From Georgenia yuyongxinii (GTDB lineage Bacteria; Actinomycetota; Actinomycetes; Actinomycetales; Actinomycetaceae): a DNA stretch of 64,000 nt. A program made the translations under genes and the position numbers. Below, piece by piece: positions 2,737-33,944 of this stretch (position 1 is its first letter; each line of letters opens with the position of its first letter). The notes beneath the pieces are model-generated. The model did no database searches and was not told the DNA's origin. It saw nothing but the letters and a program-made list of their open reading frames with translations. The stretch is taken from positions 3,100,001 to 3,164,000 of the forward strand of contig NZ_CP040915.1 of the NCBI RefSeq assembly GCF_006352065.1. Direction: 5' to 3'.

Positions 2737-4671
2737 ATGCGCGCACTTCGACACCTGCTTTCCTCCGCCCTCGTCCTCGCGCTGGCGGTGGTCGGTCTGA
2801 TCGCGATGCCCGAACGTGCCGCGGCCGCGGAGGAGCGGTACTCCGCGCCCTCGAGCGGCTACTGGAACATCACCGGCCGCGGCTGGGGCCACGGCATCGG
2901 CATGTCGCAGTGGGGCGCCCTAGGCGCCGCCCAGCAGGGCCGTGGATATGCCGAGATCCTCGACTTCTACTACCCCGGCACCTCGATGAGCACGCTGGGG
3001 AACTCGCTCATCCGGGTGGCGCTGACCGCGTACACCCCGACCGCCAGCGTGACACTCTCCGCCCCCGCCGGTCAGAAGCTGTCCATCGGCAACGCCGGTC
3101 AACAGCCCGCACACACCGGCACCGGCCGCTACTCGGTGGTCCGCACGGCGGCAGGGTACGTCGTCGAGCGCCGCGACAAGATCAACGGCCCCGTGCGCGA
3201 CAGGTTCACCCTTCCCGGCAAGGACCTCGAGGTCTCCTCCGGCGACGGCGCCGCGGTCTTCCCGCGCCAGGACGGGACCGACGGCACGTGGTACCGCGGG
3301 ACGCTGCGGCTGGTGGGCAGCGGGAACGTCGCCGGCGCCTTCGACGTGGTCAACCACCTCACGCTCGAGGACTACCTGCGCGGCGTCGTGCCGCGTGAGT
3401 CGCCCTCCGGGTGGCACGCCGAGGCGCTGAAGGCCCAGGCCGTCGCCGCCCGCAGCTACGCGCTCACCGAGAAGAAGGCCGGCCACTTCGACACCTGCGA
3501 CACCACGCAGTGCCAGGTCTACGGCGGCCGCGCGGCCGTCGTCGCCGACGGGGTGGACTTCAAGCCCGCCGCCAAGGAGGCCGCCAGCACCGACGCGGCC
3601 ATCCGCGCGACCGCCGGCCAGGTGCGCTGGCACAACGGCGCGGTCGCCTTCACGCAGTTCTCCTCCACGAACGGCGGGTACTCGGTCAAGGCCAGCAACC
3701 CCACCCGGCATCCGTACCTCGTGGCCCGGCCCGACCCGTGGACCGGCACCGCCCGGGGCGACTCGCGCACGTCCTGGTCCGCCCGGCTCAACGTCGGCAC
3801 CGTCCAGGCGCAGTGCCCGCCCGGCGGCACCCTGCGCACCCTCGTGATCACGGGCCGCGACGGCAACGGGCCCCTCGGCGGGCGGATCACCGGCGCACGC
3901 GTCGAGTGCTCGAACGGGTCCAAAAACCTCGCCTCGTTCACGCTCGGCATGCTCTCCCGGTGGTGGAAGCCGACGGCCAGCCCGGAGCAGCAGTACGGCT
4001 TCTTCCTCAACGACGCCTGGACCACCACGGCGAACCACGTCTTCCAGTACGGCCGAGACACGGACGAGGTGCTCGTCGGCGACTGGGACGGCGACGGCGC
4101 CGACACCCTCATGGTGCGCCGCGGCGCCACGTTCTACGTCTCCAACGACCTCGCGGGCGGCAACGCGGAGCAGGTCTTCACCTACGGCCGGCCCGGCGAG
4201 ACCATCCTCGTCGGCGACTGGGACGGCGACGGCGTGGACACCCTGGCGGTGCGCCGCGGCGCGCAGTACTTCATCAAGAACTCCATGGGCGGCGGTGGCG
4301 CCGACGCCGTGATCACGTACGGTCGGGCCGGGGACACCGTCCTCGTGGGCGACTGGGACGGCAACGGCACCGACACGCTCACGGTGCGCCGCGGCCCGGA
4401 GTACCACGTCAAGAACGCCATCGCCGGTGGCCGCGCGGACCAGGTCGTGGTGTACGGCCGCGGCGGGGACGCCGTCGTCGTCGGGGACTGGGACGGCAAC
4501 GGCACCGACACCCTGGCCGTGCGCCGCGGGGCCGAGTACCACGTGAAGAACTCCATCAGCGCCGGCCCGGCCGACCGGGTGCTCGTCTACGGGCGTGCGG
4601 ACGACGTCGTCCTGGTCGGTGACTGGAACGGTGACCGTGCCGACACCCTCGGGGTGCGCCGCCTGCCCTGA
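2737..4671 (+). CDS. Secreted SpoIID/LytB-domain protein with C-terminal GDWDGDG repeats
   Basis: A 644-residue exported protein. Residues 1-30 form a signal peptide (MRALRHLLSSALVLALAVVG..., cleavage after an AAAA run). GWGHGIGMSQWGA near residue 50 and SPSGWHAEALKAQAVAARSY at about 222-241 are hallmarks of the SpoIID family, whose founding member is a glycan-strand lytic transglycosylase in sporulating Firmicutes; LytB-like relatives modify amidase activity. From about residue 435 there are five tandem units of about 45 residues with YGR..D..LVGDWDGDG.DTLAVRRG, the same module as in five other proteins of this window. The ATG at 2737 gives the signal peptide; the in-frame ATG at 2668 would put charged sequence in front. 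Lytic activity on peptidoglycan is inference. Confidence 0.9.
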   Translation: MRALRHLLSSALVLALAVVGLIAMPERAAAAEERYSAPSSGYWNITGRGWGHGIGMSQWGALGAAQQGRGYAEILDFYYPGTSMSTLGNSLIRVALTAYTPTASVTLSAPAGQKLSIGNAGQQPAHTGTGRYSVVRTAAGYVVERRDKINGPVRDRFTLPGKDLEVSSGDGAAVFPRQDGTDGTWYRGTLRLVGSGNVAGAFDVVNHLTLEDYLRGVVPRESPSGWHAEALKAQAVAARSYALTEKKAGHFDTCDTTQCQVYGGRAAVVADGVDFKPAAKEAASTDAAIRATAGQVRWHNGAVAFTQFSSTNGGYSVKASNPTRHPYLVARPDPWTGTARGDSRTSWSARLNVGTVQAQCPPGGTLRTLVITGRDGNGPLGGRITGARVECSNGSKNLASFTLGMLSRWWKPTASPEQQYGFFLNDAWTTTANHVFQYGRDTDEVLVGDWDGDGADTLMVRRGATFYVSNDLAGGNAEQVFTYGRPGETILVGDWDGDGVDTLAVRRGAQYFIKNSMGGGGADAVITYGRAGDTVLVGDWDGNGTDTLTVRRGPEYHVKNAIAGGRADQVVVYGRGGDAVVVGDWDGNGTDTLAVRRGAEYHVKNSISAGPADRVLVYGRADDVVLVGDWNGDRADTLGVRRLP

Positions 4672-4686
4672 CCGGGCCCCACCCGA

Positions 4687-4776: not shown

Positions 4777-5394
4777 GTGGAGTTCCGTGAGCTGACGGTC
4801 CCCGGTGCGTGGGAGATCACGCCGAAGCAGTTCGGCGACCCCCGCGGGGTCTTCCTCGAGTGGTTCAAGGACAGCCCCTTCGTCGAGGCCGTGGGTCACC
4901 CGCTCGACCTGCGCCAGGCCAACGCGTCGGTCTCGGCCGCCGGTGTGGTGCGCGGCATCCACTTCGCCGACGTCCCACCCTCGCAGGCCAAGTACGTCAC
5001 CTGCCCGTCCGGCGCCGTGCTCGACATCGTCGTCGACATCCGCGTGGGCTCCCCGACCTTCGGTCAGTGGGACAGCGTGCTGCTCGACGACGTCGACCGT
5101 CGCGCCATCTACCTCTCGGAAGGGCTCGGGCACGCGTTCTGCTCCCTCGAGGACGACTCGACCGTGATGTACCTGTGCTCCGCTCCGTACGCCCCGGGCC
5201 GCGAGCACGGCATCAACCCGCTCGACGCGACCGTGGGTATCACCTGGCCCGACACCGGCCGGAACGGCGAGCCGCTCGAGCTCCTCCTCTCCGAGAAGGA
5301 CACCGCCGCGCCCGGTCTGCGGGAGGCCGAGGAGCAGGGCTTGCTGCCGCGGTTCGACGAGGTCCAGGACTTTCTCGCCTCGCTGCGCCGGTGA
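4777..5394 (+). CDS. rmlC: dTDP-4-dehydrorhamnose 3,5-epimerase
   Basis: Third enzyme of dTDP-L-rhamnose synthesis, double epimerisation at C3 and C5 of the 4-keto-6-deoxy sugar. The 205-residue cupin has ITPKQFGDPRGVFLEWFKD near the N-terminus, RQANASVSAAGVVRGIHF carrying the catalytic histidine, then SEGLGHAFCSLEDDSTVMYLCS and the NPLDATVGITWP segment. Length is typical. Translation starts at GTG 4777 with GAGGGAGAGTGAC just upstream. The stop overlaps the GTG of the next glycosyltransferase (GTGA), so the two are probably translated together: the pair may make the rhamnose donor and use it. Confidence 0.96.
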   Translation: MEFRELTVPGAWEITPKQFGDPRGVFLEWFKDSPFVEAVGHPLDLRQANASVSAAGVVRGIHFADVPPSQAKYVTCPSGAVLDIVVDIRVGSPTFGQWDSVLLDDVDRRAIYLSEGLGHAFCSLEDDSTVMYLCSAPYAPGREHGINPLDATVGITWPDTGRNGEPLELLLSEKDTAAPGLREAEEQGLLPRFDEVQDFLASLRR

Positions 5395-6302
5395 ACCCGA
5401 CCGTCGGCGCCGTCGTCGTCACGTACCGGCCCGACCTAGTCCTCACCGTGCCGCTCCTGCGGGCGCTGGCGGACCAGTGCGCGCACGTGGTGGTGGTCGA
5501 CAACGGGTCTCCCCAGGACGCGCGGGAAGGACTGGCGGCCGTGTGCGCAGAGGTCGGCGCCGAGCTCCTGCCGCTCGGGCACAACGCCGGCATCGCCCGC
5601 GCCCAGAACCTCGGGACCGACCGGGCGCGTGCACTGGGTGCCGATCTCGTGCTGTTCTCCGACCAGGACTCCCTGCCCGCACCGGACATGGTGAGCCGAC
5701 TCCTCGACGGCTGGGCGCGCGCCGCCTCCCGGGGGGTGCGTGTGGGCGCGGTCGGTCCGGTCTCATCCGACACCCGCTCGACGACGGAGCAGATGGTTTA
5801 CGTTGCCCGCCGCTGGGGCCCGCGCCGCGCCCGTCCCGAGGAGGCCCACGACGGCCTGGTCGAGGCGGCGTTCCTCATCGCGTCCGGCTGCCTGATCGAC
5901 GTCGCGGCCCTCGACGAGGTGGGCGGCATGAACGAGGCCTGGTTCATCGACCACGTCGACCTCGAGTGGGGGCTGCGCGCCCGACGCGCCGGTCTTCGTC
6001 TCTATGCCGTGCCGGACGCCCGCCTCGACCACGAGCTGGGCGACCGGCTCACCAAGCTGCCCGGCCGCGCCCAGGAGGTGCACGTCCACTCCCCCGTGCG
6101 CACCTACTACCTCGCCCGCAACACCGTGCTGCTCATCCGCTCGGGGCTGATGACTCCGGCGTGGCGACTGGGCTACGCCGTGTGGCTGGCCAAGTACGTG
6201 GCGTTCAACGCCCTCCTCGCGGCGCCGCGCCGCCGGCGGATCGCCCTCATGGCCCGTGGCCTGCGCGACGGCGTGACCGGCCGGACCGGTCCGCTCGCCT
6301 GA
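5391..6302 (+). CDS. Family 2 glycosyltransferase, probable rhamnosyltransferase
   Basis: A 303-residue GT-A enzyme. It opens VGAVVVTYRPD, has VVVVDNGS for the nucleotide-sugar fold, HNAGIARAQNLG, and the metal-binding DQDS (DxD-like) at about residue 93, then WFIDHVDLEWGLRARRAG, the downstream acceptor-side motif of RfbN/WbbL-type rhamnosyltransferases. The start GTG 5391 overlaps the rmlC stop by four bases. Coupling to rmlC supports L-rhamnose as the donor, but that is inference. A hydrophobic stretch near residues 250-270 may attach it to the membrane. Confidence 0.88.
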   Translation: MNPTVGAVVVTYRPDLVLTVPLLRALADQCAHVVVVDNGSPQDAREGLAAVCAEVGAELLPLGHNAGIARAQNLGTDRARALGADLVLFSDQDSLPAPDMVSRLLDGWARAASRGVRVGAVGPVSSDTRSTTEQMVYVARRWGPRRARPEEAHDGLVEAAFLIASGCLIDVAALDEVGGMNEAWFIDHVDLEWGLRARRAGLRLYAVPDARLDHELGDRLTKLPGRAQEVHVHSPVRTYYLARNTVLLIRSGLMTPAWRLGYAVWLAKYVAFNALLAAPRRRRIALMARGLRDGVTGRTGPLA

Positions 6303-7900: not shown

Positions 7901-7904
7901 GAGG

Positions 7905-9176
7905 TCAGCGGCGGTAGTCGAAGTGCCACGGCTCGGGGACCGAGCCGGTCTCCCAGTGCCAGGGCATGTTGTACCAGCCAAAACGTGGCCCGTTGGCCCG
8001 CAGCCACGGGTACGGTTCCTGGCCGAACTCGATCTCGGTCCTGCCGCCGAAGTCGACGGCGAGGCCGTAGCCGTGCGGGGACGTGCCCGGTCGGGCAGCG
8101 ACGGGCGGGCCGGTCTCCTGCCACACGTGCAGCTGGTCGGCGTAGGAGCGGTAGGTGGTGAACGGCGCGCCGTTGATGGGCAGCGGCTTGCCGAAGCGTG
8201 CCTCGTAGGCTCGGTGGAAGGCGACCAGGTCGTCCACCGCCCGGCACTGGATGGCGTGCGTCGGCAGGAACGGGATCGGGCACAGCAGCGAGTGGCTGAG
8301 CCGGCCGTTTCGAGCGTCGTAGTCACCGGAGACGGCGTCGACCCCCGCCAGGTTGGTCACGGCGCCGTTGGCCGTGCGTTCGAGCGCGGGCCGCAGGCGC
8401 TGGATGCCGAGGGAGTCGACGCCGTCGCCGTTCCAGTCCCCCACGAGTGTGGTGTCGGTCGACCGGCCGTACACCACGGTGCGGTCGGCCTGGCCGGCGC
8501 GGATCTCGTTGGCGACGAAGTACTGGGCGCCGCGGCGCACGGTGAAGGAGTCGTCCCCGTCGCCGTCGAAGTCTCCGACGTAGACGTCGTCGTCGCTGCG
8601 GCCGTACACGGCCACGCGGTCCGCCGCCCCGGCGGAGATGGTGTTCTTCACGTGGTACACGGCCCCGCGGCGCACGGCGAAGGTGTCGGTGCCGTTGCCG
8701 TCCCAGTCGCCGATCAGCACCGTGTCGTCGCCGCGTCCGTAGACGGCGACGACGTCGGCCCGGCCGGCCGTGAGGGAGTTCTTGACGTGGTACTCCGCAC
8801 CCCGGCGCACAGCGAGGGTGTCGACGCCGTCGCCGTCCCAGTCCCCCACGAGGACCGTGTCGCCGGCCCGGCCGTACGTGAAGGAGTGCTCCGGGGCGCC
8901 GGTCGAGTTGGAGTTGCGCACGAAGAATGTCCCACCGCGACGATAGGCGAGGGTGTCGACGCCGTCGCCATCCCAGTCGCCCACATAGAAGTAGTCGGTG
9001 ATCTCGCCGTAAGTGAAGACGGTGCTCGCCTGGGCGGCGAAGGTGTCGGAGAGGTAGAAGTCGTTGCCCCACCCGTCGGACTGGCCCTTGGCGGCGGTGG
9101 TGGTCACCCCGGTGACCATGGTTCCCAATACGAGGAGGGCCACTGCGGACGCGCTCCCGATCCGTCGCAGTTTCAT
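7905..9176 (-). CDS. Secreted VanY-type D,D-carboxypeptidase (M15B) with GDWDGDG repeats
   Basis: A 423-residue exported protein: signal peptide at 1-30, then five 45-residue repeats (about 45-265), each with GDWDGDG or a close variant, the fifth closing with GDWNGDG. The C-terminal domain (about 300-423) has SPHGYGLAVD near 363-372 and EPWHFDY near the end, which match the SxHxxGxAxD and ExxH zinc motifs of M15B D-alanyl-D-alanine carboxypeptidases. It would trim the terminal D-Ala of peptidoglycan stem peptides outside the cell. The ATG at 9176 begins MKLRRIGSAS, a clean signal peptide; the upstream in-frame start at 9209 adds charged residues. The catalytic assignment is from motifs; the target wall is inferred. 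Confidence 0.9.
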   Translation of the reverse strand: MKLRRIGSASAVALLVLGTMVTGVTTTAAKGQSDGWGNDFYLSDTFAAQASTVFTYGEITDYFYVGDWDGDGVDTLAYRRGGTFFVRNSNSTGAPEHSFTYGRAGDTVLVGDWDGDGVDTLAVRRGAEYHVKNSLTAGRADVVAVYGRGDDTVLIGDWDGNGTDTFAVRRGAVYHVKNTISAGAADRVAVYGRSDDDVYVGDFDGDGDDSFTVRRGAQYFVANEIRAGQADRTVVYGRSTDTTLVGDWNGDGVDSLGIQRLRPALERTANGAVTNLAGVDAVSGDYDARNGRLSHSLLCPIPFLPTHAIQCRAVDDLVAFHRAYEARFGKPLPINGAPFTTYRSYADQLHVWQETGPPVAARPGTSPHGYGLAVDFGGRTEIEFGQEPYPWLRANGPRFGWYNMPWHWETGSVPEPWHFDYRR

Positions 9177-9394: not shown

Positions 9395-10378
9395 TCAGCC
9401 GAAGTAGCTCTCGCAGGCTTCGCCGTCCTTGTCGGCGTCGAGTCGGTGCACGTCGCCGCGTCCCTGTGCCTTCCAGTAGTCGAGCGTCGCCTGCGCCTCC
9501 GCCTTCGTGCGGAAGTCGGGGCAGTCCAGGTCGGGCGAGCTCGGCCGGTGGGCAGGCTTCGGCGCGGGAGCCGGGGCCGGCGCGGGCGCGGGCTGGGGCG
9601 CGGGTCGGCGGATGCCGAGGGTGTCGGTGCGGTCGCCGTTCCAGTCGCCCACCAAGGTGGTGTCCGTCGTCCGCCCGAAGACCACGGTCCGGTCCGCCGA
9701 GCCCGGCCGGATCGCGTTGGCCACGAAGTAGGTCGCCCCGCGGCGCACGGTGAACGAGTCGTCCCCGTCACCGTCGAAGTCGCCCACGTAGACGTCGTCG
9801 TTCGCCCGGCCGTACACGGCGACCTGATCCGCCCGGCCCGCGCTGATGGAGTTCTTCACGTGATACTCCGAGCCACGACGCACCGCGAAGGTGTCCTTGC
9901 CGTCCCCGTCCCAGTCCCCGACCAAGATCGCGTCACCCGCGCGGCCGTACACGGCCCGGTGGTCGGCCGGACCACCCGCGAGGGAGTTCTTCACGTGGTA
10001 CTCCGCGCCACGACGAACCGCGAAGGTGTCGGAACCGTTGCCGTCCCAGTCCCCCACCAGCACCACGTCACCAGGACGGCCGTAGGTCACCACCTGGTCC
10101 GCGTTACCACCGGCGTTGGAGTTCTTGATGTAGAACGTCGCACCGCGCCGCAACGCCAGGGTGTCCGTGCCGTTGCCGTCCCAGTCACCGACGAAGACGT
10201 CGTCGGTGGCGCTGCCGTAGCTGAACTCGATGTTCGCCTTGGCCGAGAACGAGTCCGACAGGAAGTACTGGTTCCCGGATCCGCCGATCTCGCCGCCCTT
10301 GGCTCCGGCCGGCGCGGCGATTAGCACCGCCGTCAAGCATGCGGCCCCGGCGGCCGCGATCATGCGTCGTGCACTCAT
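9395..10378 (-). CDS. Secreted GDWDGDG-repeat protein with Excalibur calcium-binding domain
   Basis: A 327-residue exported protein. Signal peptide about 1-28 (ACLTAVLIAAPAGA), five 45-residue repeats at about 40-262, a Pro/Ala linker (repeated PAP), and a C-terminal Excalibur domain whose DADKDGEACE has the DxDxDGxxCE pattern known from extracellular calcium-binding Excalibur domains. No enzyme domain is present, so a structural or adhesive role is possible. ATG 10378 has GAAGGGGA eight bases upstream. The repeat-coding DNA is nearly identical to that of the neighbour at 10526-11734. The 218-bp gap upstream of the VanY-type gene (9177-9394) carries short tandem copies of GCTCAGC near 9385 and no gene. 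Confidence 0.9.
   Translation of the reverse strand: MSARRMIAAAGAACLTAVLIAAPAGAKGGEIGGSGNQYFLSDSFSAKANIEFSYGSATDDVFVGDWDGNGTDTLALRRGATFYIKNSNAGGNADQVVTYGRPGDVVLVGDWDGNGSDTFAVRRGAEYHVKNSLAGGPADHRAVYGRAGDAILVGDWDGDGKDTFAVRRGSEYHVKNSISAGRADQVAVYGRANDDVYVGDFDGDGDDSFTVRRGATYFVANAIRPGSADRTVVFGRTTDTTLVGDWNGDRTDTLGIRRPAPQPAPAPAPAPAPKPAHRPSSPDLDCPDFRTKAEAQATLDYWKAQGRGDVHRLDADKDGEACESYFG
9610..10270. repeat. About 650-bp duplicated DNA segment, copy A
   Basis: By eye the segment matches 10965-11625 almost base for base (for example both share GAACGAGTCGTCCCCGTCAC and the stretch over the first repeat unit). It covers the five-repeat module and the end of the signal-peptide region. The downstream domains of the two genes are unrelated (Excalibur versus CAP). 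Confidence 0.85.
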
Positions 10379-10525
10379 CTGTGGTTCCCCTTCGATCCCC
10401 ATTGCGTGGCACAGTTGCCCCGCCGCGTCCGCATTCCGATCACCGCTGATCGAGCGAGTCGTGTACGGACACCTGTTGCCGATAATAGTCGCCCGCTTCG
10501 GTCGTGCCCGCGCCCACAACCACAC

Positions 10526-11734
10526 TCAGCGGCAGGTGTAACCGAACCGCTGGGTGTTGTAGAGCTCGCCGCCGACGACCACCGTCCCGGTCGCGACGAA
10601 GCCGAGCTCGGGGTTGAGGATGTTGGCGCGGTGACCGGGTGAGGCCATGTACCGCTGCATCGCCAGCTCGGGCTTGCTCGAGTAGCTCGACCAGAAGATG
10701 TTCTCGGCGTAGCCGCTCGGGCAGCCGGCTCCGGCAGCGTCGTCCCACAGGGTGCGACTAGTGGCGTGCTGGAACGAGTCGGTCCGGGCCATCCAGGACG
10801 AGTGGGAGAGGGCGCCGCCTCGTAGCGGTGGCCAGTACGCGAGGGGCGGCAGGCCGTGCCGGGCCCGTTCGATGTTGATGAGCCCGACCATCTGGGCGTC
10901 GTAGGCCTCCTGGGCCCCGGAGACCGTGCCGCCGATGTGCTGCACGGTGGATGCGCGCCGTAGGCCCAGGGTGTCGGTGCCGTCGCCGTTCCAGTCCCCG
11001 ACCAACGTGGTGTCGGTGGTACGGCCGTAGACGATCGTGCGGTCCGCCGAACCAGGACGGATCACGTTGGCGACGTAGTACGTGGCGCCACGGCGCACGG
11101 TGAACGAGTCGTCCCCGTCACCGTCGAAGTCGCCCACGTAGACGTCGTCGTTCGCCCGGCCGTACACGGCGACCTGATCCGACCGGCCCGCGCTGATGGA
11201 GTTCTTCACGTGGTACTCCGAGCCACGGCGCACCGCGAAGGTGTCCTCGCCGTCCCCGTCCCAGTCCCCCACCAGAATCGCGTCCCCGGCTCGGCCGTAT
11301 ACCGCCTTGGCATCCGCCGGACCACCCGTGAGGGAGTTCTTCACGTGGTACTCCGAGCCACGACGAACCGCGAAGGTGTCGGTGCCGTTGCCGTCCCAGT
11401 CCCCCACCAGCACCACGTCGCCGGGACGGCCGTAGGTCACGACCTGGTCCGGGTTTCCACCGGCGTTGGAGTTCTTGATGTAGAACGTCGCACCGCGGCG
11501 CAGGGCCAGCGTGTCCGTGCCGTTGCCGTCCCAGTCACCGACGAAGACGTCGTCGGTGGCGCTGCCGTAGCTGAACTCGATGTTCGCCTTGGCCGAGAAC
11601 GAGTCCGACAAGAAGTAGGTGTCCCCGCTGCCGCCGACCTCCTGCCCCGCAGCGGTGGCGGGCGCAGCGGTCGACAGGCCGGTCATCACGAGACCGGCAA
11701 CCATCAGCGTCCTGAGGCACATCCTGCGCGGCAC
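10526..11734 (-). CDS. Secreted CAP/SCP-domain (YkwD-like) protein with GDWDGDG repeats
   Basis: A 402-residue exported protein: signal peptide in the first 29 residues, five 45-residue repeats (about 40-262, fifth unit GDWNGDG), then a CAP domain. The CAP part shows MVGLINIERARHGLPPL, LSHSSWMARTDSFQHA, YAENIF and SPGHRANILN, the standard conserved boxes of bacterial SCP/PR-1-like proteins. The family's biochemical role in bacteria is not settled; wall or sporulation-related roles have been proposed. The start is GTG 11734, with AAGGGGA at a usable distance; the ATG at 11722 has a poorer site. It sits 147 bp upstream of its near-duplicate, the Excalibur gene. Confidence 0.9.
   Translation of the reverse strand: MPRRMCLRTLMVAGLVMTGLSTAAPATAAGQEVGGSGDTYFLSDSFSAKANIEFSYGSATDDVFVGDWDGNGTDTLALRRGATFYIKNSNAGGNPDQVVTYGRPGDVVLVGDWDGNGTDTFAVRRGSEYHVKNSLTGGPADAKAVYGRAGDAILVGDWDGDGEDTFAVRRGSEYHVKNSISAGRSDQVAVYGRANDDVYVGDFDGDGDDSFTVRRGATYYVANVIRPGSADRTIVYGRTTDTTLVGDWNGDGTDTLGLRRASTVQHIGGTVSGAQEAYDAQMVGLINIERARHGLPPLAYWPPLRGGALSHSSWMARTDSFQHATSRTLWDDAAGAGCPSGYAENIFWSSYSSKPELAMQRYMASPGHRANILNPELGFVATGTVVVGGELYNTQRFGYTCR
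10965..11625. repeat. About 650-bp duplicated DNA segment, copy B
   Basis: Partner of the segment at 9610-10270, in the same orientation. Even synonymous positions look conserved over long stretches, pointing to recent duplication or ongoing gene conversion rather than ancient domain sharing. Confidence 0.85.
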
Positions 11735-25941: not shown

Positions 25942-27384
25942 TCAGCGGCCCCGCCGCTTCGCCATCCGCCAGCGGATCTTCCCGACGACTGCCCGCGGCC
26001 CGCCCTCGCGCAGGTAGTGCAGCACGGCGAGGGCGTCCAGCCGCGCCCGGGTGTACCAGGGCAGCGTCCCGAACTCGGGTCCGCGCAGCCGGTCGGCGTC
26101 CCGCGCTCGTCGGGGGGCGCGGCAGAACGCGAGCAGCGGCTCGAGCACCACGGGCCAGGTGTACCGCTCGGCCACCCGCGCCACGTTCGCCCGCGCGGCG
26201 GCGTGTGCGTCGTCGTCCAGGAGGAGAAGCTCCAGGGCGTCGGCGAGCGCGTCGACGCCCTCGGTGGGCACCGTGGCGCCGAGGCCCTCGGCGGCGACGA
26301 GGTCGCCGAAGGTGTCCCCGGCCGAGCACACGATGGGCAGGTCGGCCCACAGGTAGTCGAGGATCCGGGTGCGGAAGCTGAACGCGGTCTCGATGTGCTC
26401 GAAGTGCGCGCTGACGCCGATGTCGGCGTCGAGCAGGTAATCGGCGCGGCGCTCGTAGGGCACCCAGTCCTCGTTAAAGAACACGTGGGTGCCGGTCAGG
26501 CCCAGCTCGTCGGCGAGGCGACGGGTGCGGGTGGCCATCGCCATCTCGGGCACGTCGGGGTTGGGGTGCTTCATGCCGAGGAAGTACAACCGCACCTCGG
26601 GCACCCGCTCACGCACCCGGTCGACGGCGCGCAGCACCGTGACGGGGTCGAACCAGTTGTAGACCCCGCCGCCCCACAGGACGACCTTGTCGTCCGTGCC
26701 GATGCCCGGCACCACGCCCTTGATCGCCGGCGCCTGCCGCTGGGGCGGCGTCGCTGCGGTCCCGAACGGCACCACGGTGAGGAGGCTGCGCAAGGAGGGG
26801 TCGGCGTCGTACGTGTCCGGGTTGATCCGGCCGGCGACGCCGAGGTGACCGAGCCAGAGGTCACGCTGCTTCTCCGAGGCACACATGAAGAGGTCGCCGC
26901 GCGCGGTCTGGGCGGAGAGCTCGCGCAGCGCGTTGGCGAGCGACGCGTTCCGCTCCTCCACCGGCTTGTAGCGCTCCACCTCGAGCGACTCGAGGTGGAA
27001 GGGGTCGTACAGGTCGAGCACGAGTACCTGCGGGCACTGCTGCAGCCACGCGAAGGTTTGCATGACGAAGCCCTGGATGATGACGACGTCGGCGCCGTCC
27101 ACCTCGGCGCGGAAGTCCCCGACCGTGATGTGGGCGGTGTCGAAGCCGACGCCGGGGCGCTCGCACGCACCGAAGGTCACCAGGCGCACACGGTGCTGCT
27201 CGGCGGCCAGGGCGGTGGAGATCTCCCAGGCACGGATGGCCGGCCCTGCCATCCGCTCGGCGAGGGTGTCGAGCGTGACGACGAGGATGCGCTGGGCGCC
27301 GATGCGGGCGTCCGCATGCTCCGCACGCGCGTCCGCCGGCGCGACGACCTCCCTCGCCGCACCCATGTCCCCCGCCGCGCCCAT
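25942..27384 (-). CDS. Glycosyltransferase (GT-B, family 4-like) of the export operon
   Basis: A 480-residue protein. After a short variable N-terminus it reads RILVVTLDTLAERMAGPAIR, VLVLDLYDPFHLESL, a central KVVLWGGGVYNWFDPVTVLRA (start of the donor-binding Rossmann domain), DIGVSAHFEHIETAFSFRTR and ILDYLWADLPIVCSAGD. This matches glycosyltransferases encoded next to Wzm/Wzt exporters. The ATG at 27384 overlaps the TGA of the ABC ATPase (TGATG). Alternative in-frame ATG 27366 would shorten it by six residues. It may add a sugar to the exported polymer or its cap; the donor is not known. Confidence 0.85.
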   Translation of the reverse strand: MGAAGDMGAAREVVAPADARAEHADARIGAQRILVVTLDTLAERMAGPAIRAWEISTALAAEQHRVRLVTFGACERPGVGFDTAHITVGDFRAEVDGADVVIIQGFVMQTFAWLQQCPQVLVLDLYDPFHLESLEVERYKPVEERNASLANALRELSAQTARGDLFMCASEKQRDLWLGHLGVAGRINPDTYDADPSLRSLLTVVPFGTAATPPQRQAPAIKGVVPGIGTDDKVVLWGGGVYNWFDPVTVLRAVDRVRERVPEVRLYFLGMKHPNPDVPEMAMATRTRRLADELGLTGTHVFFNEDWVPYERRADYLLDADIGVSAHFEHIETAFSFRTRILDYLWADLPIVCSAGDTFGDLVAAEGLGATVPTEGVDALADALELLLLDDDAHAAARANVARVAERYTWPVVLEPLLAFCRAPRRARDADRLRGPEFGTLPWYTRARLDALAVLHYLREGGPRAVVGKIRWRMAKRRGR

Positions 27385-28586
27385 CAGCGCGCCTCCACGT
27401 CCGCCGCCTGCCAGCGCGACGGCGTGTGCATGTAGCCGCCCCACCAGCGCTGCTGGCCGCTCTCCACGCTGAACTTGGCGCTGTCGCGGACCTGGTCGTA
27501 CACGTGCTGGGTGGTGGAGTCGGTGATCGAGGTGACGACCACATAGCTGCCCGGGGCGAAGGCGACGGCGTCGGCGTGGCAGTCGATGTAGCCCGGCCCG
27601 TGGACGGTGCCGAGCCGGGGCCCGTGGTCGAAGGTGTTCGACGCCCACAGGTACGTGCCGTCGGAGCTCTCGATCGCGCACCCCATGACCGGGTTCTCCA
27701 CCGGCTCGTGCGCGTCGTAGTGGATCCGCACGGTCATGTCCTCGCCGGAGACCACCGGGCTGCCCGAACCCTGCCGCCCGAACACCTCCACCCGGCCGAC
27801 GGTGAGCTCGCCGGAGCCCCAGTGGGTGCGGCCGTGCTCGTCCAGCCGGGTGGAGTCGTGGGTGGAGTCCATGTAGGACTCGAGCACGCCGGCGGCCGGG
27901 CCGACCGCCTGCAGTTTCCCGCCGGCCAGCCACGCGGCCTGGTCAGCCATGGTGCGAAGCGACGGCATCGAGTGGCTGACCACCACCACGGTGCGGCCCT
28001 CGCGCCGGAAGTCGGCGAACTTCGCCGCGCACTTCTCCTGGAACGCGGCGTCACCGACGGCGAGGACCTCGTCCACCAGCAGGATCTCGGGATCGACGTG
28101 GATGGCCACCGAGAAGCCGAGCCGCACGTACATGCCGGACGAGTAGTTCTTCACCGGCTGGTCGATGAACTGCTCGACGCCCGAGAAGCCGACGATCTCG
28201 TCGAACTTCGAGTCGATCTCGGGCTTCGTCATGCCGAGGATCGAGCCGTTGAGGTAGACGTTGTCCCGCCCGGACAGCTCGGGGTGGAACCCCGAGCCGA
28301 CCTCGAGCAGGGCCGCCACCCGTCCGCGGGTGACGATGCGCCCCGAGTTGGGGTACAGGATCTTGGCCATGCACTTCAGGAGGGTGGACTTCCCGGAGCC
28401 GTTGTCCCCCACCAGCGCGAAGGTGGAGGCCTCGGGGATCTCGAAGGAGACGTCCTTGAGGGCCCAGAAGTCCTCGTGCACCGAGCGCCGCCGGCGCATG
28501 ACCGCGGCCTTGAGAGTCTGGTTGCGCTCGTGGAAGATGCGGAACTTCTTCGAGACGTCGTCGACGGTGATGGTGGCGGTGCTCAC
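27384..28586 (-). CDS. wzt: Polysaccharide ABC exporter, ATP-binding subunit with carbohydrate-binding C-domain
   Basis: A 400-residue ATPase. Walker A GDNGSGKST is at about 60-68, the signature YSSGMYVRL near 150, Walker B ILLVDEVLAVGDAAF near 170, and the switch histidine in VVVSHSMPSLRTMA. Residues 250-400 (starting around VGRVEVFGRQGSGSPVV) are a beta-rich extension typical of Wzt proteins, in which the C-domain binds the exported glycan before transport. The tail ends WWGGYMHTPSRW. The start is GTG 28586, overlapping the permease stop (GTGA). With the permease it would export a lipid-linked polysaccharide across the membrane. Confidence 0.92.
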   Translation of the reverse strand: MSTATITVDDVSKKFRIFHERNQTLKAAVMRRRRSVHEDFWALKDVSFEIPEASTFALVGDNGSGKSTLLKCMAKILYPNSGRIVTRGRVAALLEVGSGFHPELSGRDNVYLNGSILGMTKPEIDSKFDEIVGFSGVEQFIDQPVKNYSSGMYVRLGFSVAIHVDPEILLVDEVLAVGDAAFQEKCAAKFADFRREGRTVVVVSHSMPSLRTMADQAAWLAGGKLQAVGPAAGVLESYMDSTHDSTRLDEHGRTHWGSGELTVGRVEVFGRQGSGSPVVSGEDMTVRIHYDAHEPVENPVMGCAIESSDGTYLWASNTFDHGPRLGTVHGPGYIDCHADAVAFAPGSYVVVTSITDSTTQHVYDQVRDSAKFSVESGQQRWWGGYMHTPSRWQAADVEAR

Positions 28587-29416
28587 AGTGCCTCAGCCAG
28601 CCCCTTCTCGCTGCGCTTGAACAGCGCGTAGCCCAGGAAGAACGCGCCCAGGCTCCAGGCCGCGCAGGCCAGCGCGGTCGACAGATCGGGCCAGCGGTTG
28701 TCGTACAGGAGGTTGCGGAACACCTCGGCGAACTGGCCGATGGGGTTGAGCAGATACAGGTCCAGCAGCGTCACCGAGCCGAACAGCGGGCCCAGGCGCT
28801 CGGACTGGTCGGCCACCAGCGAGACCGGGTAGACGATCGGCGTCAGGTAGAACCACACCTGGAACAGGATGCCCACAAAGTGCTGGGTGTCTCGGAAGTG
28901 GACGTTGGCCACGGACAGCATCAACGAGACCCCGGTGGCGAACAGCGACATGAGCGCCATGAACACCACGACGAGCGGGAGCCACACCAGCGCGTTCGAG
29001 CCCACGATCAGCAGGGCGAGCACCAGCACGACCATCTCGATGGACCAGCTGAACATCCACGAGAACGAGTTGGCCACCAGCAGCGCGATGCGGGGGAAGT
29101 AGACCTTCTTGATGAGGTTCTCGTTCCCCACCAAGGTGCCCATGCCGCCGTTGACGACGTTCGTGAAGAACGTCCACGGCAGCAGGGCGCAGAGCAGCCA
29201 CAGCGCGAAGATGTTGAGGCCGCTGGGGTCACCGGGGTCGGGCTGGACCCGGATGATGAAGGCGAAGACGACCGTGTAGATCGCCATCGCGGCCAGAGGG
29301 TTCGCCAGCGACCAGAGCTGGCCGAGCGCGGTGCGCTTGTACTTGCCCTTGATCTCACGGCGCGTGAGGTTGAGCACGAGCTCGCTCGAGCCCTGCAGGT
29401 CCTTCACGATGCCCAA
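28583..29416 (-). CDS. wzm: Polysaccharide ABC exporter, permease subunit
   Basis: A 277-residue ABC-2 type permease with six hydrophobic segments. LTRREIKGKYKRTALGQLWS near the N-terminus and ANVHFRDTQHFVGILFQVWF, followed by LTPIVYP, are standard for Wzm/TagG exporters. The start is TTG 29416 with GGGAGG about nine bases upstream; GTG 29407 is a weaker alternative. It heads the three-gene coupled unit permease, ATPase, glycosyltransferase. The exported polymer is probably the rhamnose-containing glycan made by the surrounding genes, which is inference. Confidence 0.92.
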   Translation of the reverse strand: MGIVKDLQGSSELVLNLTRREIKGKYKRTALGQLWSLANPLAAMAIYTVVFAFIIRVQPDPGDPSGLNIFALWLLCALLPWTFFTNVVNGGMGTLVGNENLIKKVYFPRIALLVANSFSWMFSWSIEMVVLVLALLIVGSNALVWLPLVVVFMALMSLFATGVSLMLSVANVHFRDTQHFVGILFQVWFYLTPIVYPVSLVADQSERLGPLFGSVTLLDLYLLNPIGQFAEVFRNLLYDNRWPDLSTALACAAWSLGAFFLGYALFKRSEKGLAEAL

Positions 29417-29531: not shown

Positions 29532-31508
29532 TCACCCGCACGCCGTGATCCGGTACACCCGCGCCGGCCCGCCCTCGGCGACGAGATCGAACCCGGTGGT
29601 GGTGTCGACGTCGTACAACCCTGGGGAGTCCTGCGCCCACGCCTGAGGCCCGGAGTCGTCGGCGTAGAAGTACTCGATCCCGTCCTCGGCAACGATCTCG
29701 CACACCTTCGGATCCGACCGCAGCTGGCCGAAGTGGGCCTTGAGGTACGACTGGTCGGGGTCCCAGCTCGAGGGGTTGACGTGCGGGATGAAGGCCACTG
29801 CCCCGCCCACCGACTGGACGAACGCCGCCCCGTTGCGCGGGTCCCCGAGCACGACCGCGTCGTCCGGGAGCACGTCGTCGAGCGAGCGGATCATCGTCAG
29901 CTCCTCGGTCGAGGCGTGCGCGGTGGTCAGGATTCGGTCGGGCTGGAACCCCCAGGCCGTCCAGCCGTTCTGCCGCTCGTCGTACCGGAACGCGCCGGAG
30001 GTGACGAATGCCAGCGCCAGCACACCGACCATGACGACCGGGGCCAGCCAGTCGCGGGTGCGGCCGTGGCGCGCACCCGCCCGGGACTCGGCGAGCAGCC
30101 GCTGCGCGGCCCGTCCCAGCGCGACGACCCCCAGCGCCCCCAGGACGGCCGCCACCGTGGGCAGCATGGCGAAGGTGCGGTCGGCGGACTTGTACCAGAA
30201 CCCCGCCAGGTCCCGCAGCACGTTGTTCGGCCCTGCAGCCACGACGTAGATGCCCAACGTCAGCAGCCAGGACACGGCCAGCCACCGGGTGCGCACGGAC
30301 ATGGCGGCCACCACGACGCCGATGAGCACGAGCGCCGCCACGACGACGTTCGCCCACGGACTTGTCCACCCGATGGTGGTGGAGAACGTCAGCCCCCGGA
30401 ACAGGGCGAGCCGACGCGACCCTTCTACTGCCGGGAAGGCCGCCATCGCCTGCAACGCGGGCACCGTGTAGACGGCCACCACGAGCGCGAGCGCGACCGC
30501 GGGGGCGGCGCCGGCCGCGACGACCGCGGCGGCGCGGTGCCCCAGCCGCCACTGCCGGAGCCCCCGTCGGGCGCCGACCTGGCCCAGGTAGGGCAGCACG
30601 AACAGCCCGAGCACCGCCAAGCCGGCCGGCTGGGCGGCCACCACCCCGGCGCACGTGACGACGGCGGCCAGCCCGCCTCGCAAGGCGTGACCCGGCGACC
30701 GGTCGGTCCGGGCGCGCTCCACCACGCCCACGACCAGCGCGACCGCGCCAGGGGCAAGCGCAATCGCGAGGCAGTAGGGGAACATGCCCTGCAGCACCAG
30801 CAGGTTGGCCGGGAAGATGAGGAAGGAGGAGGCCACCACGGGCGCCACCGCCGCAACCGCGCCGTCGCGCGGAGCGACCGCACGGGCGAGGGCCACGATG
30901 CCGACCAGCCACACCGCCAGGGCGGTGAGCAGCATGAGCATGTTCGAGGCCACCACCACGGAGGACAGCCGCGCCCCGAGCGCGACCATCGAGTGCCACA
31001 CCGCGGGGTAGAAGACGCCCGTGCTCGACCCGTACATCGGGTCCAGGCCCCCGAGGGAGGAGGCGTTGCCGGTGCGCAGGACGGTCTCGGCGGCGTTGAG
31101 GTGGAACACGGGGTCGTAGATCTGCTGGACGGCGTCGGGCCGCCCCATCCCGTTCAGGTAGGCGCCGGCCTGCACCCCCGCGCCCACCGCGAGGCCGATC
31201 CCTACGAGCGCCCACGAGCGGGGCGTCAGGGGTGGGAGCGACACCGTGCCGGGTGGGAGCACCCGTCCCAGCAGCGCGCACAGCCCGAGCACCACCGCGA
31301 GCAGGAGGACCACCGGGGCCGGGGTCCACGCCACGCCCACGACGTCGAGCACGACCGCCCCGAGCGCGAGCACCGCGACCACCGCGGCGGGCGCGCCGGC
31401 GACGGCGAGGACGCCGCGGACCCCGAGCAGTCGCAGACCGACCCATCCCGGCAGGTACAGGAGGGCCAGGAGCACCGTCGCCGTGGGTAGTGCGTCGATC
31501 CAGCTCAT
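29532..31508 (-). CDS. DUF6541-like actinobacterial multi-pass membrane protein (paralogue 1)
   Basis: A 658-residue protein with about fourteen transmembrane segments and a C-terminal extracytoplasmic domain. Conserved pieces include PVFHLNAAETVLRTGNASSL, YGSSTGVFYPAVWHSMVAL, ANLLVLQGMFPYCLAIALAP and the C-terminal DDAVVLGDPRNGAAFVQSVGG and EDGIEYFYADDS. The same layout recurs in the protein at 39634-41709. The DUF6541 label is my recollection of this architecture and should be verified. A GT-C-type enzyme acting on a lipid-linked sugar is plausible from the fold and position beside the exporter. ATG 31508 opens at MSWIDALPTAT. Confidence 0.75.
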   Translation of the reverse strand: MSWIDALPTATVLLALLYLPGWVGLRLLGVRGVLAVAGAPAAVVAVLALGAVVLDVVGVAWTPAPVVLLLAVVLGLCALLGRVLPPGTVSLPPLTPRSWALVGIGLAVGAGVQAGAYLNGMGRPDAVQQIYDPVFHLNAAETVLRTGNASSLGGLDPMYGSSTGVFYPAVWHSMVALGARLSSVVVASNMLMLLTALAVWLVGIVALARAVAPRDGAVAAVAPVVASSFLIFPANLLVLQGMFPYCLAIALAPGAVALVVGVVERARTDRSPGHALRGGLAAVVTCAGVVAAQPAGLAVLGLFVLPYLGQVGARRGLRQWRLGHRAAAVVAAGAAPAVALALVVAVYTVPALQAMAAFPAVEGSRRLALFRGLTFSTTIGWTSPWANVVVAALVLIGVVVAAMSVRTRWLAVSWLLTLGIYVVAAGPNNVLRDLAGFWYKSADRTFAMLPTVAAVLGALGVVALGRAAQRLLAESRAGARHGRTRDWLAPVVMVGVLALAFVTSGAFRYDERQNGWTAWGFQPDRILTTAHASTEELTMIRSLDDVLPDDAVVLGDPRNGAAFVQSVGGAVAFIPHVNPSSWDPDQSYLKAHFGQLRSDPKVCEIVAEDGIEYFYADDSGPQAWAQDSPGLYDVDTTTGFDLVAEGGPARVYRITACG

Positions 31509-31625: not shown

Positions 31626-33944
31626 CTACGGACGGCGCACCCCCAGGGAGTCGGTGCCGTCACCGTTCCAGTCGCCCACCAGGATGAGGTCCTCGGCGCG
31701 GCCGTAGACCACCTCGAAGTCGGCCGGACCTGTCGCCACCGTGTTCTTGATGTAGTACCGGGCGCCGCGGCGCACGGCGAGGGTGTCGCGACCGTCGCCG
31801 TCCCAGTCGCCGGTGAGCACGGTGTCGGCGGGGCGGCCGTAGGCAACCGTGTAGTCGGCCACCCCGGTGGCGACGGAGTTCTTCACGAAGTAGATCGACC
31901 CGCGGCGCACACCGAAGGTGTCGCGCTTGTCACCGTCCCAGTCCGCGACGAGCACCTCGTCCCCGGCACGCCCGTACGCCACCACCTGGTCCGCCGGCCC
32001 CGAGGTGATCGAGTTGCGCACGTGGTAGATCGCGCCGCGGCGCACGGCGAAGGTGTCGGTGCCGTTGCCGTCCCAGTCCCCCACCAAGATGTCGTCACCC
32101 GGGCGGCCGTAGGCGATGACGGTGTCGGGCTCGTTGTAGGTGTTGGAGTTGGAGATGTAGAACGTGCGGCCCACCCGAGCGGCGAGGGTGTCCACGCCGT
32201 CGCCGTCCCAGTCGCCCACGTAGATCTGCGCGGACTTGTCCCCGTAGCGGAACTGGGTGTCCGCCGTCGGCCCGAAGTCGTTGTTGAGGTAGAAGAGCTG
32301 CAGAGCCTGGCTGTCGACGGCGCGGGTCAGGCTGGGCAGCCAGGACTGGATCGCGTTGCCCGGGCACGTGGTGGCGCCGACGTCGCGGTGGCCGAAGATG
32401 CGTGCGAGACCGCGACCCTTGGGGGTGTAGGCGGTGCCGGGCGAGGTGATGCCGCTGGGCGTGTCCAGGTCGATGCCGGCGCGGGCGAACTGCCAGGCGA
32501 TGACGTTGGCCATGGAGTTGAAGATCTCCCGCGGCGGGCTCACCTTCGTGTAGTCGCCCATCGCGGAGATGCCCAGGGTGCCGGTGTTGTACCCGCCGGC
32601 GTGCGCCCCGATGGTCATCTTCCCGGCCGGCGCGGCGAGCGAGCCGGTGCGGCCCTCGAACACCCGGCCCCACTTGTCGACGAGGAAGTTGTAGCCGATG
32701 TCGCCCCAGTCGCGGGTCTCGGCGTGGAAGAAGTAGATGCCGCGCACGATCGAGGCGGACTGGGCCGGCGTGTAGTCGTTGGTGCCGGCGGTGTGGTGCA
32801 CGACGGCAGCCTTCAAGGTGGCGTAGCCCGGCCGCCAGGACATGATCTTGGGGTCCGCCCCCCAGCCCGCGCGGCTGGTGATGGTGGGCCTCGGCACCGT
32901 CGCTGCGGCGGGCATGACGCCGGCCATCTGCGCGGCGGCGGTGACGCCGGAGGTCCACGCCGCCGTGCTCGTGGAGGACGAGGGGCCCAGCGCGGCGGAG
33001 CTCGCCCCTGTCACGGCTGTGCCCAACGACACCGGTGCCACGGTGGCCGCCGGCTGGGAGACGTCGCCGAGCAGACTCCGGAACGCAGCGGGCTCGGTGG
33101 TGGCGGTGGGCTCCTCGGTGGGCAGCTCGGCCGGGGGCTCAGGGGCCTCGGTGATGACCTCTTCGGCGGGCTCCGGGTTCGCCGGGATGAGGCTGAGCTC
33201 GAGGCCGGCCGGGAGGGCACCGGCGTCACCGGTGACCTGGAGCTGAACAGCGTCCGCGCCGCCCGTGACGAACGGGTCGGTGCCGGCCTTGACGCCCGCT
33301 CGCGCCTCGCCGGAGTCGAGGGCGTCCTCCGCCTCGGTCTCCAGCCACTGCGACCACTCGCCGTCCTCGAGGACGCGCAGGAACACTCGCGCACCGGTGG
33401 GCAGGCGGTCCTGGGCGTCCCAGGTGAGGCCGGCCACGAGGAACTCCTCGGTGGCGATCGGAGGGGTCAGGACCGCGATCTTGTCGAGGTCCGCATCCGG
33501 GTTCTGGGCGGTGGTGGTGGCGGCGGTCAACGTGCTGCCGGGCGCCGCGTCCGCCAACCCGCCTAGGCGCACCGTGGCGAGCCCACGACCGGCCCCGCCG
33601 CCGTGCAGGCCGGCTGCGGCCAGTGCCGCAGCCGAGCCGGCCGCACCGGTCGCACCGGTCGCACCGGTCGCACCAGTCGCCGCCGGAGCATCCGTGCCGA
33701 GCTGCTCCAGCCCTTCCTCGGCCACCGCAGTGCGCCGGCCTGCAAGGTCGGTGAGCGAGATCACCGTGACCGGCGCGGCCGGTCCGGGGTCGTCCGGAGC
33801 GGTGTCGAGCGGCAGGGGCAGGTCGTCCGCGGAGGCCTCGGTCACGGGCGGCGCGGCCGCGGCGGAAACAGCGGCCGGCGCCCCCATGGGGGCTAAGAGC
33901 AGGAGCGACGTCCCAAGAAGGGCAGTGGTACGGGGAAAGAGCAA
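31626..33944 (-). CDS. Secreted PGRP-type N-acetylmuramoyl-L-alanine amidase with GDWDGDG repeats
   Basis: A roughly 772-residue exported protein. A hydrophobic signal (TTALLGTSLLLLAPMGAP) is followed by an acidic, Pro-rich region with an ATGATGATGATG tract. The amidase-2/PGRP domain spans about 355-530: SRAGWGADP, VVHHTAGTNDYTP (zinc His), DWGDIGYNFLVDKWGRVFEG, IFGHRDVGATTCPGN (second His and Cys ligands). Five 45-residue repeats follow to the C-terminus, closing with GDWNGDGTDSLGVRR. It should cut between MurNAc and the stem peptide. The start is uncertain: TTG 33944 gives a good signal peptide; ATG 34034 overlaps the divergent ugd start and adds a charged prefix. Confidence 0.88.
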   Translation of the reverse strand: MLFPRTTALLGTSLLLLAPMGAPAAVSAAAAPPVTEASADDLPLPLDTAPDDPGPAAPVTVISLTDLAGRRTAVAEEGLEQLGTDAPAATGATGATGATGAAGSAAALAAAGLHGGGAGRGLATVRLGGLADAAPGSTLTAATTTAQNPDADLDKIAVLTPPIATEEFLVAGLTWDAQDRLPTGARVFLRVLEDGEWSQWLETEAEDALDSGEARAGVKAGTDPFVTGGADAVQLQVTGDAGALPAGLELSLIPANPEPAEEVITEAPEPPAELPTEEPTATTEPAAFRSLLGDVSQPAATVAPVSLGTAVTGASSAALGPSSSTSTAAWTSGVTAAAQMAGVMPAAATVPRPTITSRAGWGADPKIMSWRPGYATLKAAVVHHTAGTNDYTPAQSASIVRGIYFFHAETRDWGDIGYNFLVDKWGRVFEGRTGSLAAPAGKMTIGAHAGGYNTGTLGISAMGDYTKVSPPREIFNSMANVIAWQFARAGIDLDTPSGITSPGTAYTPKGRGLARIFGHRDVGATTCPGNAIQSWLPSLTRAVDSQALQLFYLNNDFGPTADTQFRYGDKSAQIYVGDWDGDGVDTLAARVGRTFYISNSNTYNEPDTVIAYGRPGDDILVGDWDGNGTDTFAVRRGAIYHVRNSITSGPADQVVAYGRAGDEVLVADWDGDKRDTFGVRRGSIYFVKNSVATGVADYTVAYGRPADTVLTGDWDGDGRDTLAVRRGARYYIKNTVATGPADFEVVYGRAEDLILVGDWNGDGTDSLGVRRP

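Follow-up and report, generated by a model that had tools for sequence, protein, structure and literature searches.

A five-bladed propeller module shared by secreted proteins beside a rhamnose-polysaccharide locus of Georgenia yuyongxinii, a probable lectin-type wall anchor

Introduction

LGFP repeats are wall-binding, and Bacillus subtilis LytB and LytC both carry CWB2 repeats. Non-covalent anchoring to the wall has been described for CWB2 (PF04122), choline-binding and SLH repeats (PMC5817068, PMC4973711), CWB2 repeats bind PSII in Clostridioides difficile (PMC4973711), and in B. subtilis LytB is the modifier that goes with an amidase, LytC (PMC10653849 for LytB). Propeller lectins have been described in another setting, the lectin domains of UmbA being part of the umbrella toxins of Streptomyces (PMC13274773). 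Here we analyse 64,000 nucleotides of the Georgenia yuyongxinii chromosome (NZ_CP040915.1, positions 3,100,001 to 3,164,000; the window), in which six putatively secreted proteins with different attached domains share a module of tandem 45-residue units. What we show directly is the modelled fold, the number of copies, their linkage, the replacement of the domain in orthologues, and a predicted pocket loop that covaries with the locus; from this we infer sugar binding, the ligand, the placement of the pocket and an anchoring effect, and we think it likely that the module is a lectin-type propeller that anchors enzymes to the wall polymer of the adjacent rml/Wzm/Wzt locus.

Results

The module is carried by open reading frames (ORFs) at 2737, 6512, 7905, 9395, 10526 and 31626 (Table 1). 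All six are present where a first-pass annotation of this DNA had placed them, with the tandem units of about 45 residues and the rhamnose-polysaccharide surroundings that it had claimed: unit spacing is exactly 45 amino acids (aa), without indels, in all six, and rmlA, rmlD, rmlC, rmlB, Wzm, Wzt and several glycosyltransferase genes are found around them. The unit has the consensus RG..Y...N....G.AD....YGR..D.VLVGDWDGDG.DTLAVR, and the degenerate fifth unit of the NodB protein lacks the GDWDG box. Mean pairwise column identity is 0.49 over 39 units of eight proteins, against 0.088 (maximum 0.093, n=500) for within-unit shuffles. The two further proteins, found by searching the whole 4.17-Mb genome, are an S8 subtilase, encoded at 3097-3099 kb with a gene start 0.7 kb ahead of the window, and, near 3297 kb and ~132 kb past the window, a second polysaccharide deacetylase (PDA2); seven of the eight copies fall inside ~37 kb of the chromosome. 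The differing attached domains that had been claimed were recovered over Pfam cut-offs for SpoIID, Polysacc_deac_1, VanY, CAP and Amidase_2, Excalibur falling slightly under (20.7 vs 22). Signal peptides had been claimed for all six, and each does have a hydrophobic N-terminal stretch (14-residue hydropathy maximum 1.73 to 2.93), with the CAP (1.73) and PGRP (1.74) proteins under the 1.9 threshold of what is a crude hydropathy measure and not a signal-peptide predictor. The longest frame of the PGRP protein begins with ATG at 34034, and a start near 33944 is also possible. LPXTG or a hydrophobic C-terminus was found in none of the six. As a separate observation, the modules of the adjacent Excalibur and CAP proteins (9395-11734) are 92% identical, and the pair is probably a recent tandem duplication with a swap of the attached domain.

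Five-unit arrays open with a half unit and close with the complementary half, an arrangement that fits a closed propeller. One module, that of the CAP protein, was modelled with five four-stranded blades, 20 strands in sequence and a predicted local distance difference test score (pLDDT) of 95.9; a single-sequence model of the NodB protein reached a pLDDT of only 36.6. Unit columns 33-38 read D-W-[DN]-G-[DN]-G in nearly all units and form a DxDxDG cation loop between modelled strands A and B, a loop absent from the fifth unit of the NodB protein. With structural matches ranked by VIA-align rather than by Foldseek alone, the closest solved structures belong to lectins that bind glycans, first UmbA4 with teichuronic acid and then tachylectin-2; Foldseek alone places KICSTOR subunits first and PVL-type lectins next, with poor superposition. 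The module profile found no sequence match among PDB chains at E<=1, and the VanY protein, as a single query against the PDB, gave a good match only via its VanY domain. No Pfam or NCBIfam model scored over cut-off on the module in the six window proteins: FG-GAP_3 (PF13517, gathering score 26.9) matched two of them at 20.4 and 20.0 bits and gave no match at E<=0.01 in the other four. PDA2 scored 28.0 bits on the same model. Judged by these sequences, the module would be a divergent relative of VCBS/FG-GAP-type propellers that is not filed as PF13517. The trypsin-like domain that is a trait of UmbA is present in none of the eight proteins of this genome and is not among the partners listed in relatives (best 25 of 64 families).

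The module occurs patchily, in 21 of 59 relatives and in 14 of 296 genomes sampled from the whole phylum, and where it is present it tends to have a copy close to rmlB. Copies were counted among the matches listed, with overlapping rows merged (4 of 6 each in genomes G006 and G007, 9 of 10 in G008, 28 of 31 in G016, and in G025 12 copies merged from 16 listed of 19 matches). On this basis a module lies within 20 kb of rmlB in 14 of 15 genomes tested, each with a single rmlB, G046 being the only miss, where chance would give ~1.5 genomes; the same search around dnaA, our control, gave 0 of the same 15. Two of the remaining six module-bearing relatives (G037, G057) also have a copy close to rmlB, none was seen close to it in G029, G042 and G053 (other contigs), and rmlB was not found in G047, so that 16 of the 21 module-bearing relatives have a copy within 20 kb of rmlB. 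Of the relatives with the module 20 of 21 have rmlB, as do 23 of the 38 without it (Fisher p 0.005, uncorrected for kinship). Beside rmlB, the module is mostly found on the amidase, in several genera, and on the SpoIID protein. Other copies lie far away: 10 of the 12 counted in G025 (one contig) are >50 kb from rmlB, and 14 of 24 in G005 are >50 kb from it or on other contigs.

In orthologous amidases and SpoIID proteins the place of the module is taken in some genomes by other repeats. We compared what follows the catalytic domain, using the best match where a genome has several amidases, leaving out G050, whose tail could not be read, and any genome in which either protein is missing, and counting as module the two low-scoring modules of G042 (149 and 128 bits). 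CWB2 repeats stand in the module's place on both proteins in G003, for example, and by eye in G013 and G028; elsewhere the tail consists of choline-binding repeats (G011, G026), LGFP repeats (both proteins of G049), SLH (G027, G046), an SH3-type domain (G021), other FG-GAP propellers (both proteins of G048, G051 and G056) or DUF4214 (both proteins of G045), and the tails of G007 and G043 are unplaced. Both G053 proteins end in an unnamed repeat, 48% identical over 240 aa. Tail type is the same on the amidase and the SpoIID protein in 16 of the 18 genomes with both tails readable (19 have both proteins); 5.8 were expected, and 16 was reached in 0 of 20,000 shuffles. Beyond the window's genus, the two agree in eight of nine genomes (1 of 20,000 shuffles). 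The two genes are far apart or on different contigs in G003, G016, G051 and G056 and are close neighbours in G042, G045, G049 and G053, where swapping between neighbouring genes may help the concordance. A CWB2-tailed amidase paralogue is also present in G000, G004 and G008, and the CWB2 model found matches in B. subtilis in a control scan. Judged by its position in orthologous wall enzymes, the module would do the same job as CWB2, choline-binding and SLH repeats.

Two of the replacing repeats fit no Pfam family over cut-off. That of G053, DGS.GSELLLY....G.R.vLD (L159:2059-2961, L182:2470-3441), is maybe another propeller-type anchor. The rmlB-side amidase of G007 (L141:487-1497) has the repeat GW.IDPDT..P.YVWVTVDG instead of the module; its near relative G006 keeps the module, and the two genomes differ in Wzm/Wzt allele.

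Residue differences between genomes are concentrated in a predicted pocket loop. Unit column 24 (the last position of YGx, in loop DA') first drew notice in the amidase and SpoIID modules, where it is Arg or Asn by genome and the same in both. We aligned 113 modules, scored blades 2-5, and compared ten genomes for Arg and Asn (99 of the 113 modules). Genomes kept out of this comparison are mostly Arg (G036), mixed (G012), Trp/Ala/Ser and others (G042) or Arg plus Lys (G046); copies were fetched in part (22 modules each from G005 and G016), and the modules of G009, G025 and G029 lie outside the set. In seven genomes column 24 is basic in 307 of 324 blades (291 Arg, 16 Lys) and Asn in two; in G002, G004 and G008 all 72 blades have Asn (55) or Asp (17). 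It is the strongest separator of the two groups, at 0.994 on a scale of 0-1, followed by columns 13 (0.75, loop CD), 25 (0.72, loop DA'), 21 (0.65, end of strand D), 3 (0.63, turn BC), 15 and 12 (0.54 and 0.48, loop CD) and 39 (0.45, calcium-loop end). Mean separation is highest in loop DA' (0.41), falls to 0.14 in the calcium loop and is lowest in strand B (0.10). Among the 120 possible splits of three against seven genomes, only that of G002, G004 and G008 reaches 0.99 at column 24, the next reaching 0.82. These three genomes have a common Wzm/Wzt allele, 77-93% identical mutually, with Wzm 25-28% identical to that of the window. The UDP-glucose-type dehydrogenase gene adjoins rmlB in each of the seven Arg genomes, cut short by a contig end in G016, and was not found in the stretches searched around rmlB of G002, G004 and G008 (~54, 57 and 38 kb). 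A DnaA-DnaN-RecF tree places G000 (Arg) as sister to G002 and G004 (support 0.994) and groups G008 with other Arg genomes of the genus (support 0.963); the switch is thus not one of simple descent. The Asn/Asp modules cluster across partners, with two changes on the module tree that persist when column 24 is removed, and have therefore probably spread or been converted as units.

A survey of units in the best 73 of 520 candidate loci (87 module ORFs) included Georgenia, Oceanitalea, Occultella, Puerhibacterium, Actinomyces, Actinotignum, Bifidobacterium, Actinokineospora and others. Spacing was 45 in 300 of 307 cases, and 62 runs had five units and none more, shorter runs being in part, perhaps, degenerate units missed by the search pattern. 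A hydrophobic N-terminal stretch was present, by the same crude measure, in 54 of the 78 module ORFs with their 5' end in the sequence; a hydrophobic C-terminus was found in none with the 3' end in the sequence, and an LPXTG-like string in one of 87. A related array on the minus strand of locus L109 has three units with a spacing of 49 rather than 45 residues. Partners were scanned with Pfam in 32 C-terminal and 71 N-terminal stretches, several loci coming from close strains and the best 25 of 64 families being covered for one set. Among them were Amidase_2 (7), CAP (6), SpoIID (6), Peptidase_S8 (4), Excalibur (3), VanY (2), M23 (2), YkuD (1) and NlpC/P60 (1), and others were GSDH (8), AP_endonuc_2 (8), CBM_6 (8), Amidase (5), ThuA (3), metallophosphatases (3), 5'-nucleotidase (2) and multicopper oxidase (1).

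The remaining genes of interest are listed in Table 1. The dehydrogenase beside rmlB has its top equivalog score to TuaD, of teichuronic acid synthesis, under that model's cut-off. In this genome, S8 proteases and amidases are found with either propeller or CWB2 repeats, and a CWB2-NlpC/P60 protein is encoded immediately before the second deacetylase, outside the window; the neighbourhood would thus hold two kinds of putative wall anchor. Besides these, the polysaccharide region encodes two full-length DUF6541 proteins (29532-31508 and 39634-41715, both minus strand; 481 and 461.5 bits), weak homologues of which lie close to rmlB in some relatives, and includes a 637-aa ORF (22584-24497, minus strand) that has no Pfam match at E<=0.001 and may not be a gene. 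A GH127 beta-L-arabinofuranosidase-type protein (44162-46090, minus strand) is encoded beside the CWB2 protease.

Table 1. Module-bearing proteins, polysaccharide genes and CWB2 proteins of the window (window coordinates)
Feature	Position	Strand	Remarks
rmlA, glucose-1-phosphate thymidylyltransferase	595..1512	+	
rmlD-type reductase	1541..2440	-	
SpoIID/LytB-domain protein, 644 aa	2737..4671	+	C-terminal five-unit module 3976-4665
rmlC, dTDP-4-dehydrorhamnose 3,5-epimerase	4777..5394	+	
Family 2 glycosyltransferase	5391..6302	+	
NodB/PdaB-type polysaccharide deacetylase, 462 aa	6512..7900	+	N-terminal module, four units and a degenerate fifth
VanY-family carboxypeptidase, 434 aa	7905..9209	-	N-terminal five-unit module 8394-9083
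Excalibur-domain protein, 328 aa	9395..10381	-	N-terminal five-unit module 9602-10291
CAP-domain protein, 402 aa	10526..11734	-	N-terminal five-unit module 10952-11641 (module modelled)
Wzt, polysaccharide ABC exporter ATPase with Wzt_C domain	27384..28586	-	
Wzm, ABC-2 exporter membrane subunit	28583..29416	-	
Amidase_2/PGRP N-acetylmuramoyl-L-alanine amidase, 802 aa	31626..34034	-	C-terminal five-unit module 31629-32318
Nucleotide-sugar dehydrogenase, UDP-glucose 6-dehydrogenase type	34033..35361	+	beside rmlB
rmlB, dTDP-glucose 4,6-dehydratase	35539..36534	+	single copy in genome
Protein with three CWB2 repeats	37491..38573	+	other wall-anchor type, same neighbourhood
S8 subtilase with CWB2 repeats	41945..44023	-	counterpart of the propeller-bearing S8 protease just outside the window

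Discussion

We propose that the module forms a closed beta-propeller of five blades with calcium loops (VCBS-type), a lectin that serves as a non-covalent wall anchor. Once secreted, it would keep the enzyme to which it is joined on the wall polysaccharide of the producing cell, for whose synthesis and export the adjacent rml/Wzm/Wzt genes would be responsible, and several similar pockets per module, predicted between the blades at loops CD and DA', would bind this repeating glycan by avidity. All modules of one genome would read one glycan, and their specificity would shift together when the polymer changes. The combination of Arg with a UDP-glucose-type dehydrogenase suggests a uronate-bearing polymer, and Asn/Asp another polymer type, perhaps a neutral one. 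In the window genome the pocket Arg probably faces a uronate made via the dehydrogenase beside rmlB, a reading that draws on TuaD as the best equivalog (sub-cut-off) and on the nearest structure, which binds a teichuronic acid-like polymer.

The first-pass annotation had proposed that one binding module places several wall enzymes on a common surface ligand, possibly the glycan of the same locus. A single binding-type module on several wall enzymes and a common surface ligand tied to the same-locus glycan both gain support, from the lectin-type fold model, from nearness to rmlB, from replacement by known wall-binding repeats in orthologues and from a predicted pocket residue that follows the polysaccharide genes. 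A restriction to wall remodelling, as the annotation had it, proved too narrow, since in relatives the module is also found on a wide range of other secreted enzymes, with GSDH, ThuA, AP_endonuc_2, amidase, nucleotidase, phosphatase and copper-oxidase domains; such varied partners indicate a general surface module. Occurrence of the repeat on unrelated secreted proteins far from polysaccharide loci had been named as evidence against the idea, and in part this is what we find, with varied partners and many copies distant from rmlB.

Several further observations weigh against our proposal. The ligand is a putative one, assigned from gene linkage, and more than half of the module-free relatives (23 of 38) have rmlB as well. 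The link to rmlB, seen among relatives (16 of 21), is weak beyond the order: of 12 further genomes from the phylum sample that bear the module, only G070 and G114 have one lying within 20 kb of an over-cut-off rmlB. Tail concordance is broken by G007 and G052, several replacing tails (other FG-GAP propellers, DUF4214) are putative anchors only, and CWB2 and module counts are not significantly anticorrelated in 37 genomes of the family (rho -0.05, p 0.79), in the 15 that bear the module (rho -0.48, p 0.07) or in nine of the genus (rho -0.62, p 0.07). The choice of column 24 is in part post hoc, because the set of modules on which it was tested includes those that had first drawn attention to it. 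Arg-type genomes use at least three Wzm/Wzt alleles (that of G016 was not found), so that pocket and exporter are not matched one-to-one. G004, an Asn/Asp genome, keeps another nucleotide-sugar dehydrogenase ~20 kb from rmlB, 87% identical to the gene at 50407-51795 of the window; a neutral polymer is therefore not secured, and the genomes do not divide cleanly into acid and neutral. Only about two independent Asn/Asp transitions (G002 with G004, and G008) are represented, and the amidase and SpoIID partners of G008 share 87.5% and 80% identity with their G004 counterparts, more than the tree predicts, which points to cassette transfer and means that part of the covariation may be one cassette.

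This bears on a rival account to which we give a modest but real chance, and which can hold beside the anchor reading: the Arg/Asn switch may reflect shared ancestry only, an exporter and module cassette having moved, with gene conversion within the genome and without any match to a ligand. The grouping of Asn/Asp modules, with two changes on the module tree even without column 24, is what such an account would lead one to expect, as are the identity of the G008 and G004 amidases, above core-gene expectation, and the greater likeness of amidase and SpoIID modules within a genome (0.58) than between orthologues (0.51, 0.53). Against it, Asn/Asp modules are found on eight partner classes with Arg-type homologues, and separation peaks in loop DA' rather than running through the whole module. 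Several G008 copies, moreover, lie 89-170 kb from rmlB or on another contig, and for three of these distant modules (L222, L225, L229) the partner has its sole or closest homologues in Arg genomes. The same column also argues against the module being a calcium-stabilised spacer or an integrin-like protein-protein adhesion domain, its nearness to rml genes being general clustering of surface genes. DxDxDG loops of FG-GAP/integrin type in nearly every blade fit that explanation, and VCBS propellers also mediate protein contacts (PMC9218822). We nevertheless judge it improbable, since the column that best separates the genome types falls in a lectin pocket loop and is correlated with sugar genes; the dnaA control, the sole control locus and not a surface-gene cluster, was likewise negative.

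Slightly less probable still, in our estimate, is a propeller aimed at other cells, with the hydrolases released as bacteriolysins or antagonists that recognise the wall glycans of competitors, as UmbA does. The best structural match is indeed an UmbA lectin bound to another species' teichuronic acid-like polymer, and attack on foreign walls is conceivable for the amidase, carboxypeptidase, NlpC/P60 and protease partners. Yet the pocket residue tracks the genome's own polysaccharide genes, orthologues in sister genomes carry CWB2, choline-binding and SLH repeats, described as own-wall anchors, and SpoIID, CAP and sugar oxidoreductase partners are not typical lysins. We hold it just as unlikely that the module binds peptidoglycan itself rather than the rml polymer: many partners act on peptidoglycan, and tachylectin-2 and PVL-type lectins bind N-acetylglucosamine, but a peptidoglycan ligand would not call for pocket changes that follow the Wzm/Wzt and dehydrogenase genes.

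A self-directed wall anchor remains our preferred reading, and we offer one extension of it tentatively, as an idea that has somewhat less than an even chance of being right. The shared propeller lectin, placed on many exported wall proteins, may be a surface address code that is re-keyed in concert with the locus (Arg for acidic, uronate-bearing polymers, Asn/Asp for neutral ones), and unrelated anchors (propeller, CWB2, LGFP, SLH and choline-binding) may be interchangeable labels on the same enzymes. The fold class, polymer-linked anchors and lectin propellers in toxins are known already. As far as the open PMC literature shows, a propeller self-anchor on many enzymes, its in-step replacement on an amidase-modifier pair, and a pocket changing with the locus are new; we found no description there of this module as a wall anchor, and a search of a 2018 review of non-covalent anchor domains for the terms 'propeller', 'FG-GAP' and 'VCBS' gave no hit. 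If the proposal is true, a lectin-type propeller joins the short list of Gram-positive non-covalent wall anchors, and a large uncharacterised group of actinobacterial surface modules acquires a likely function. The linked exporter allele, sugar gene and pocket residue would then amount to a natural experiment on the coevolution of lectin and wall glycan, one that predicts which purified module binds the walls of which species.

As with CWB2 in C. difficile (PMC4973711), a common anchor is found on many surface proteins and genes lie beside the polymer locus; the two anchor types occupy the same tail position in orthologues and are both present in this window. In contrast, the repeat is unrelated, and CWB2 comes as three repeats per protein, against a five-bladed propeller here. 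The LytB and LytC pair of B. subtilis offers a parallel, in that one type of wall-binding repeat is common to a SpoIID-type modifier and an amidase (here the tail types agree in 16 of 18 genomes); the amidase studied here, however, is of another family (Amidase_2), and a propeller would serve as anchor. To our knowledge, neither tachylectin-2 nor PVL anchors enzymes. The module resembles tachylectin-2 in having five blades, those of tachylectin-2 being of ~47 residues (PMC4735018, PMC9218822, PMC8023676), and resembles PVL in its DxDxDG loop; tachylectin-2 and VCBS-type lectins such as PVL form their sugar pocket from loops CD and DA', the loops at which pockets are predicted here, but tachylectin-like propellers are described without the DxDxDG loop and PVL is seven-bladed. 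The 'VCBS actinolectins' (PMC8023676), compared by description only, are likewise actinobacterial, secreted, of VCBS type and uncharacterised, and differ in being single domains or joined to a TIM barrel. UmbA4 (PMC13274773) is six-bladed, is joined to a trypsin-like domain, has pockets that diverge between blades and targets other species, whereas the module described here has five alike blades, occurs on many enzymes and is probably self-directed.

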